A DNA stretch of 31,722 bases, taken from positions 1 through 31,722 of the IMG/VR virus record IMGVR_UViG_3300032294_000876; one strand, given 5' to 3'. Under the pieces are notes generated by a model that saw only the letters and a program-made list of their open reading frames with translations, searched no databases and was not told where the DNA came from. The position numbers and the translations under genes are program-made. Below, in pieces: positions 16,136-17,282 of the stretch. This DNA comes from a virus. The number at the start of each line of letters is the position of its first letter. The stretch's first letter is position 1.

Positions 16136-16294
16136 ATTTATCCCATTTCTCTTATATAGTATATAGAAGATATACAGTACCATGATTTCCCTAAGCAACC
16201 GTAACCACTATTTTAATTAAAAAATAGTAGAAACAATTGTTTAGAGAAAATTATTTCCCACTGGAGAGGTACCGTAAAACTTCGCAGTGGATTC
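16136..16294 (-). promoter_or_regulatory. Long structured leader with palindromes
   Basis: No gene is supported here. Reading along the minus transcript it has a hairpin TCCACTG/CAGTGGG (about 16258-16292), a perfect 12-base palindrome AAACAATTGTTT (16231-16242) and an AT-only stem ACTATTTT/AAAATAGT with a 6-base loop (16207-16228). These may be operators or leader RNA structure controlling the downstream genes. Confidence 0.45.
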
Positions 16295-16324
16295 AGTATA
16301 CCAGCATGTTTTACAAAAAGTCAA
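16295..16324 (-). promoter_or_regulatory. Strong promoter of the endonuclease VII/GT4 operon
   Basis: Minus-strand TTGACT and TATACT separated by 18 nt, with extended -10 TGG. It begins nine bases past the T-run of the terminator, so transcription is stopped and restarted within 10 bp. Confidence 0.82.
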
Positions 16325-16332
16325 ATGGGTAC

Positions 16333-16378
16333 AAAAAAAGGCCCAATGCGGAGAACGGGAGCAATACGCACTGGGACC
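16333..16378 (-). terminator. Strong rho-independent terminator
   Basis: Minus-strand stem GGTCCCAGTGCG/CGCATTGGGCC (one bulged T, one G-T pair) with a 16-nt loop, followed directly by TTTTTTT. The strongest intrinsic terminator in the window. It ends the lysin operon and the small RNA unit. Confidence 0.9.
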
Positions 16379-16418
16379 TTATTTGTTCTATGGATTACTT
16401 GGAGGTGATCAACATAGA
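16333..16418 (-). ncRNA. Putative about 85-nt small RNA displaying an anti-Shine-Dalgarno loop
   Basis: A promoter (16424-16453) and a terminator (16333-16378) enclose a short transcript with no credible gene. Its 5' part can fold into a 7-bp stem TTCTATG/CATAGAA (16413-16419 with 16386-16392; five pairs if transcription starts at 16417) that presents a 20-nt loop containing GATCACCTCC at 16401-16410. That decamer equals the 3' end of bacterial 16S rRNA, including the anti-SD core CCUCC. The second hairpin is the terminator. The layout, C-rich loop plus terminator hairpin, is that of an antisense small RNA pairing with ribosome-binding sites. Alternative: the ATG at 16415 starts a leaderless six-codon peptide (MLITSK). 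Confidence 0.55.
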
Positions 16419-16423
16419 ATACT

Positions 16424-16453
16424 ATTGTAGCAGGGGTTATAACTTATTGTCAA
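16424..16453 (-). promoter_or_regulatory. Promoter of the small RNA
   Basis: Minus-strand perfect TTGACA and TACAAT separated by 18 nt, with extended -10 TGC. The -35 overlaps the stop codon of the 32-aa ORF. The predicted start is near 16417, about 40 nt before the terminator stem. Confidence 0.8.
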
Positions 16454-16548
16454 ACAAGCGTGACTTTAACAGGAATTCCATCTGGACCAGGAACTTCCCA
16501 TTCAATAAACTCTACTGAGTCATCTAATTCTTCTGTATGATCTGTCAT
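16450..16548 (-). CDS. Small acidic protein, 32 aa
   Basis: AAGGAG five bases before the ATG gives MTDHTEELDD followed by VEFIEWEVPGPDGIPVKVTLV. The ribosome site is among the best here and the pattern looks like a small beta protein. Last gene of the lysin operon. Function unknown. Confidence 0.62.
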   Translation of the reverse strand: MTDHTEELDDSVEFIEWEVPGPDGIPVKVTLV

Positions 16549-16666: not shown

Positions 16667-17086
16667 CTAGTACCACCTGTTCTTTTGAAAATGCTTCCAG
16701 GCTCCGCATGGAGTGGAATGCCTTCTTGAAATATAAGACAGCGTAGCAACCAATTGGGCTACTGCACTATCTGACTTCTTCATGCCAAGACTGCTTACTG
16801 TGCTGTCTAGCATCTGGCCTATTCCACTGGCCGTAGAAGTAGGGTTCTGAGCCTCTGGTTTCCAGGCTGACTCTTTCCCTATTAACTTGGTCAAACATAA
16901 AAACTGCTTGGGATCAAGCAATTCCTTTGCTATTTCTTTTGCAGATACCTGCTCTAGGATTGGCCTTGGCTCATATACTATCGTAGGTTCTGGTTTTGCT
17001 GTGTCTGTTGTAATGCTTGTTTGTAAAAATACTGCCAGTAAAGAGACTATTACGACTCTTGACCATAGATTTTTGTTTCTGTTAAT
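16667..17086 (-). CDS. Lysozyme-like lytic transglycosylase (endolysin), 5' end uncertain
   Basis: Cell-wall lysin. The conserved core runs LTKLIGKESAWKPEAQNPTSTASGIGQ, with the catalytic Glu in KES (residue 72 in this numbering), and ends TPCGAWKHFQKNRWY, the usual end of small phage transglycosylases. Upstream in frame lies a membrane anchor or signal (VVIVSLLAVFLQTSI, about 11-25) and a Pro-rich linker. No ATG, GTG or TTG opens this frame before the hydrophobic segment. The only start with a ribosome site (AAGGAG, about six bases) is ATT at 17086. A TTG at 16921 would remove the anchor. Alternatively translation begins at the ATG at 17130 and the gene carries a 1-nt deletion or frameshift in a G run (17114-17117). 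Confidence 0.75.
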   Translation of the reverse strand: MNRNKNLWSRVVIVSLLAVFLQTSITTDTAKPEPTIVYEPRPILEQVSAKEIAKELLDPKQFLCLTKLIGKESAWKPEAQNPTSTASGIGQMLDSTVSSLGMKKSDSAVAQLVATLSYISRRHSTPCGAWKHFQKNRWY

Positions 17087-17130
17087 AAATCTCTCCTTTG
17101 GTTGGTTAAACTGCCCCTACCATCGTCCAT
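17050..17130 (-). other. Short ORF with perfect ribosome site overlapping the lysin start
   Basis: AGGAGGT precedes an ATG that opens 26 codons (MDDGRGSLTNQ, ending GQES). This is the best Shine-Dalgarno of the operon, yet the peptide lacks recognisable features and overlaps the lysin frame. One extra G in the GGGG run would fuse its first six codons in frame with the lysin. It may be the original start of the lysin, or a coupling leader for the ATT start. Confidence 0.5.
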
Positions 17131-17141
17131 AGATTTACCTC

Positions 17142-17282
17142 CTATAGTTCGTTTCTTTCAATTAAATCACAAATACGCTCAATGGTCCAGGAATCTAGAC
17201 CATCTAACTCAGATAACCTCTCAACCAATTCTTCCTTGGCAAAGATATATCCGTCTGTGAAGCCTTCTTTGTACTCTGACAT
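17142..17282 (-). CDS. Small phage protein, 46 aa
   Basis: Starts MSEYKEGFTDGY and continues as an amphipathic helix (AKEELVERLSELDGLDSWTIERICDLIE). Small proteins of this type occur in several actinophage genomes without known role. A TAAACT (TANNNT-type -10) ends six bases before the ATG, so the message may be leaderless. First gene of the lysin operon, divergent from the plus-strand gene. Confidence 0.7.
   Translation of the reverse strand: MSEYKEGFTDGYIFAKEELVERLSELDGLDSWTIERICDLIERNEL

Follow-up and report, generated by a model that had tools for sequence, protein, structure and literature searches.

Comparison among related phages shows selection, as far as it can be read from sequence, on a loop motif at one genomic place, where a promoter, one or two CCUCC hairpins and a terminator follow one another. 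On a modest balance of probability, this unit is a phage small-RNA gene whose exposed anti-Shine-Dalgarno (anti-SD) loop would occlude ribosome-binding sites in trans. An earlier note on the same DNA had proposed an anti-SD mimic. The loop core of that proposal is indeed conserved, with the amendment that the motif is CCUCC or CACCUCC rather than the full GATCACCTCC; that the loop pairs with Shine-Dalgarno sites, rather than acting as a decoy of 16S rRNA, is what we infer.

The phage and its probable host

The window, by which we mean the whole stretch of DNA analyzed (31,722 nucleotides), is an IMG/VR virus record of 31.7 kb and 40% GC that carries terminase, portal, tail and glycosyltransferase genes. 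A megablast search of INPHARED gave no match. The unit lies near a lytic transglycosylase-like (SLT) gene (16667-17008, minus strand; Pfam PF01464), delimited here by the C-terminal 113 amino acids that served as locus marker; its true start lies upstream and is uncertain. Because the named cellular relatives of the SLT protein are actinobacterial (60 loci) and TerL comparison gives Pontimonas phage phiPsal1 (45%) and phiC31-type phages of Streptomyces as the closest cultured phages, the phage family probably infects actinobacteria. We infer a freshwater source from the kind of phage and not from a record.

The S1-like protein mentioned in the earlier note was located at 9995-9192 (minus strand). 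It harbors three Pfam S1 domains and shares 42-47% identity with actinobacterial ribosomal S1, and its matches are at about equal distance to all actinobacteria sampled. Upstream of TerL, at a distance of around 1.4 kb (about 10590 in the window, minus strand), the contigs of many relatives stop, and these shared ends suggest a physical genome end there.

A promoter-hairpin-terminator unit on the minus strand

All the parts of the promoter-hairpin-terminator unit described in the earlier note are present, and they belong to the minus strand, a detail that the note did not give. The unit is placed between the SLT (lysozyme-like) gene and the next promoter. A 31-amino-acid open reading frame (16450-16548, minus strand; MTDHTEELDD...), variable in relatives, separates the SLT gene from the RNA, and its stop codon is overlapped by the −35 box TTGACA (16448-16453), which is conserved in relatives. 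A scan for sigma-70-type promoters detected the −10 box TACAAT (16424-16429) with an extended TG (TGC) and a spacer of 18 nt. With 11 of 12 consensus bases, this promoter ranked first among 21 sites in the 4-kb neighborhood scanned.

The predicted small RNA is about 85 nt long (16333-16419, minus strand), and its start can be placed near 16418 from the position of the −10 box. The anti-SD hairpin (16386-16419) has a 7-bp stem, formed by TTCTATG (16419-16413) and CATAGAA (16392-16386), and a 20-nt loop, TTGATCACCTCCAAGTAATC, inside which RNAfold predicts weak inner pairs (GAU/AUC). The loop contains at 16410-16401 (minus strand) the decamer GATCACCTCC, which equals the 3′ end of 16S rRNA as previously claimed. 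A strong intrinsic terminator follows (16333-16378), made of GGTCCCAGTGCG...CGCATTGGGCC and seven T, with CTCCCGTTCTC in its loop. The fold of the whole unit is well below that of shuffled sequences (z about −6), mostly by contribution of the terminator; the first hairpin alone gives z −1.1.

A second promoter, TTGACT-18-TATACT (16295-16324, minus strand), is found directly after the terminator, and its presence there indicates that the first unit is a stand-alone transcript. The second transcript begins with a hairpin (CCACTG/CAGTGG, 16258-16290, minus strand) that has TACCTCTCC in its loop and is swapped for other modules in relatives. The RNA started by this second promoter (window 16324-16140, minus strand) is also conserved. 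At least four exchangeable modules of it, beginning with ACTTCAGAGCGTTTAGAGATC, ACCAAGAGGTTTTTTGGAAAGT, ACTAATGCGCTACAGACTTTAAGG and CCACTGCGAAGTTTTACGG, follow the terminator in L166, L176, L183 and L189. The first of these modules folds into stable hairpins, and none of them has a match in Rfam.

Conservation of the unit among related phages

In a single window, the decamer is weak evidence by itself, as the earlier note had cautioned: around 0.02 exact copies are expected per strand, and 0.96 copies per window if one mismatch is allowed. The latter figure is what speaks for a match by chance, in a terminator or intergenic spacer of the usual kind. The question is settled by conservation in relatives. 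We retrieved 80 IMG/VR loci via the SLT protein (16667-17008); since retrieval relied on a neighboring protein, the relatives were not chosen for the RNA. The 54 closest loci were considered, 52 of which have at least 150 nt downstream of SLT. A promoter followed by CCTCC within 62 nt, at the same place and on the same strand, was found in 51 of these 52 loci. In the exception, L156, a similar unit is present, with CTCCC in place of CCTCC. Hence, the comparison of related phages, which the earlier note had indicated as a check on the loop, shows that the motif is kept and not the flanking genes alone.

The position of the motif is equally restricted. In the 320-nt stretches that follow SLT, there are 40 copies of CACCTCC on the sense strand and none on the opposite one; elsewhere in the SLT loci, 13 copies are found in 1.02 Mb. 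When both strands of 230 viral loci (3.7 Mb) were filtered for promoter, CCTCC and terminator, the 84 matches obtained, in 32 contexts, were all at the SLT-adjacent place. With the unit present in nearly every close SLT locus and its architecture absent elsewhere, a chance match is hardly credible. The loci share descent, and their counts are thus not independent events; the argument from conservation is based on the persistence of the motif while stems, flanks and terminators are replaced.

The 26 more distant SLT relatives (L204-L229) lack the unit altogether, and in the ones inspected by eye, SLT is directly followed by another gene. Loci of this group, which span around 154 kb, are also devoid of CCTCC/GGAGG on both strands, without exception (171 occurrences expected), this 5-mer being non-palindromic. 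Such absence is likely due to restriction avoidance, and total avoidance of the 5-mer means that an anti-SD loop is forbidden there as well. Strong avoidance of palindromes was seen elsewhere: the window (1-31722) has no ACGT (127 expected), AGCT (266) or TCGA (48), and CCGG, CGCG and TCGA are missing from relatives L151-L203.

Conserved and variable parts of the predicted RNA

Among 41 distinct transcripts, 40 carry CCUCC in the 5′ hairpin part. In the predicted folds, the mean probability that CCUCC is unpaired is 0.83, compared with 0.38 for the whole 5′ region. Accessibility of the loop as a selected trait was, however, unsupported when shuffles that keep CCTCC were used for comparison (0.78 in native sequences versus 0.71 in shuffles). 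Hairpin energy was lower than in shuffles in 40 out of 40 cases. From these comparisons, hairpin stability counts as evidence and accessibility does not.

Around 20 different stems enclose CCUCC, including TCTATG/CATAGA, TCTATA/TATAGA, GTTGAT/ATCAAC, TGTCG/CGACA and CATCA/TGATG. Stem sequence, whose conservation had also been put forward as a check, thus differs among relatives while pairing as a stem is retained. The TCTATG/CATAGA stem is 100% paired in 14 relatives and includes a G-C to A-U change. The alignment of type-A RNAs has invariant CACCTCC columns and a first helix with 100% pairing, and its covariation score reaches 0.284, compared with 0.175 in shuffles.

The conserved core is CCUCC, mostly in the form CACCUCC, and the full GATCACCTCC is only one among many variants. 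CACCU is present in 33 of the 41 distinct RNAs; the remaining eight keep the unit with UACCUCC, UGCCUCC, CGCCUCC or CTCCC, which makes CCUCC, the pairing core, the constant part. The consensus of 30 loop contexts (GATCACCTCCt) extends the match to 16S rRNA in the 5′ direction and not into UUUCU, so that the conserved flank of the core is GAUCACCUCC. The GATCA signal may partly come from the stem.

Most loci have one anti-SD hairpin per transcript, and L183 and L185 have two. In nine loci with type-C RNAs (L175, L179, L182, L184, L192, L195, L196, L197 and L199), an extra first hairpin precedes the anti-SD motif, with an invariant GTTGCC loop and compensated changes in the stem. Terminators are exchanged between close relatives as at least four modules. 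Their loops (e.g., window 16366-16351) share a pyrimidine-rich motif, CTCCCGTTCTC/ATCCCATTCTC, that is kept where the terminators differ in other respects.

Readings of the locus as a peptide gene, ribosome site or leader

The earlier note had left room for the region encoding merely a six-codon peptide. Neither this peptide (MLITSK) nor another leader peptide is tenable: the frame of CCTCC relative to the ATG is 1 in 13 sequences, 0 in five and 2 in one, and the stops differ. A ribosome site on the opposite strand was likewise rejected, as most of 40 loci have no start codon 4-14 nt past GGAGG and the rest yield short, unrelated open reading frames.

A hairpin followed by a terminator is the layout of an attenuator, and genes on the same strand do follow. 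One might therefore view the locus as a leader acting in cis on the downstream gene. In many loci, however, a fresh promoter comes directly after the terminator, which makes a leader function unlikely. Terminators are, moreover, freely exchanged, and a conserved leader peptide is missing. Altogether, we consider attenuation very improbable.

Searches against Rfam gave no match at gathering score in the window or in 19 relatives, and the low-score matches (ceN125, BjrC68) look like chance. Wider IMG/VR scans for the architecture with ACCTCCT returned 83 matches, against 21 for the scrambled control ACTCCCT with the same promoter, and many of the former look like ribosome sites that serve genes on the opposite strand, as seen by eye in L084, L400 and L496. 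In view of the control count, such scans say little about the spread of the unit. A phage that is apparently unrelated, L355 (5197-5292; also L319 and L357), shows a TTGACA/TATAAT promoter, CCCTACCTCCTAATTA and a strong terminator, and an opposite-strand start was not found nearby. It is possible that these three loci represent an independent anti-SD unit.

Proposed occlusion of ribosome-binding sites and its rivals

The sequence presents the features that anti-SD small RNAs have in general, namely a promoter of their own, an intrinsic terminator and a conserved core in a hairpin loop. If the unit acts in trans as we propose, host RNA polymerase would transcribe it during infection, and the RNA would end at the U tract and display CACCUCC in its loop. 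Pairing of this loop with Shine-Dalgarno sites of the GGAGG(UG) type would block binding of the 30S subunit, so that host mRNAs with strong Shine-Dalgarno sequences, and perhaps a few such phage mRNAs, would be translated less. The effect on phage mRNAs would be smaller because most of their sites resemble AAGGAG or are weak.

Among the 37 gene starts inspected in the window, hardly any has GGAGG in its ribosome site. Shine-Dalgarno usage did not clearly separate the phage loci from an AT-rich actinobacterial genome, a comparison made with crude gene calls. A conserved target beyond the core was not found. The conserved extension of the motif is a point against occlusion: GAUCA precedes the core and no UUU follows it, while one would expect CCUCCUU in an optimal anti-SD sequence.

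The same extension can be accommodated if the loop is a decoy that imitates GAUCACCUCCU, at the 3′ end of 16S rRNA. The decoy would titrate a toxin nuclease or an anti-SD-binding protein, thus protecting ribosomes that the phage needs. Two actinobacterial toxins give substance to this idea: at the 16S tail, MazF-mt11 cleaves no site other than C^ACCU (PMC12274833), and this bond is also the target of RelE1 and has been described as a toxin hot spot (PMC12620021). The conserved flank GAUCACCUCC covers this C^ACCU site, and most of the distinct RNAs contain CACCU. There is also a precedent in OLE RNA, which mimics the anti-SD sequence to bind bS21 (PMC12054373). Not all members have the cleavage site, however, since the eight RNAs without CACCU keep the unit; the mimic in OLE is a duplex and not an open loop; and the existence of a RelE1/MazF-mt11-type toxin in the host is a supposition. 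We view a decoy of the 16S tail as an unlikely explanation, and yet as the main and a serious rival of occlusion. Its version as anti-defense bait, in which the mimic would engage RelE1/MazF-mt11-type nucleases or a ribosomal protein and thereby keep ribosomes usable while infection proceeds, is in our opinion rather doubtful. If true, it would constitute a class of anti-defense RNA decoys without earlier description in the open papers searched, and a means of countering, at the RNA level, toxins that cleave the anti-SD sequence of the ribosome.

Another reading considers that the RNA tunes a gene of the phage itself, the likeliest being the small open reading frame and the SLT lysozyme upstream, with lysis timing as the outcome. 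On its coding strand, the window has a single GGAGGT (17142-17137), the ribosome site of a 26-amino-acid open reading frame located just upstream of SLT (17050-17142, minus strand), which is a possible self target in type-A phages. Most type-A relatives have AAGGAGGTAAATCTATG at this ribosome site, and the RNA gene always comes after SLT. Phages of types B and C, however, have the same RNA and no GGAGGT before SLT, theirs serving other genes, and complementarity stops at around six pairs, which is generic. Self-regulation thus appears improbable.

Comparison with known systems

Occlusion of ribosome-binding sites in trans, the reading that we favor, has its closest parallels in bacterial chromosomes. 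The alpha-r14 RNAs keep anti-SD motifs in unpaired hairpin loops while their stems diverge, and the motifs are redundant and occlude ribosome sites; NfeR1 silences mRNAs through its anti-SD motif (PMC10746234). Like these cuckoo RNAs of rhizobia, the phage RNAs keep the loop and change the stem, and sometimes have two motifs. In alpha-r14/NfeR1, however, the motif is CCUCCUCCC and lies in three hairpins, and the genes belong to alphaproteobacterial chromosomes, whereas the phage RNA has CACCUCC in one or two hairpins (two in L183 and L185). In the 30 distinct contexts, the base after CCTCC is T, G or A, and CCTCCTCCC does not occur.

The 6C/B11 RNAs of mycobacteria and other actinobacteria are similar in being stand-alone RNAs that direct C-rich loops to ribosome-binding sites, in the same probable host phylum, and B11 represses through such loops (PMC10470900). 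The difference is that 6C/B11 is a cellular gene whose loops consist of consecutive cytosines and bind runs of G, while the phage loops read CACCUCC. The Rfam covariance model of 6C/B11 gave no gathering-score match in the window or in the 19 relatives, and it is absent from the sub-threshold matches. Hence, the phage RNA is not a member of either alpha-r14/NfeR1 or 6C/B11, in line with its lack of Rfam matches.

OLE RNA, which is non-coding and binds bS21, resembles the phage RNA in that it reproduces the 16S anti-SD sequence perfectly (PMC12054373). It is, however, around 600 nt long, and its CCUCCU is protein-bound and forms pairs with an SD-like strand. In the phage RNA, of about 85 nt, the motif lies in an open loop, and the predicted fold leaves the core mostly unpaired.

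A description of a conserved phage anti-SD small RNA was not found in the open literature, most subscription journals being outside that scope. If the proposed function is true, freshwater actinobacterial phages would steer or shut down translation by means of a ~85-nt RNA, alongside a partial phage copy of S1. The c4 antisense RNA of P1 and P7 is a known phage case in which RNA loops pair around a ribosome-binding site (PMC12197685), and the likeness ends there: c4 uses a dedicated sequence against one phage mRNA, while the motif found here is a generic anti-SD. As anti-SD small RNAs are known from bacterial chromosomes, a conserved phage family without an Rfam entry would represent a new variant.
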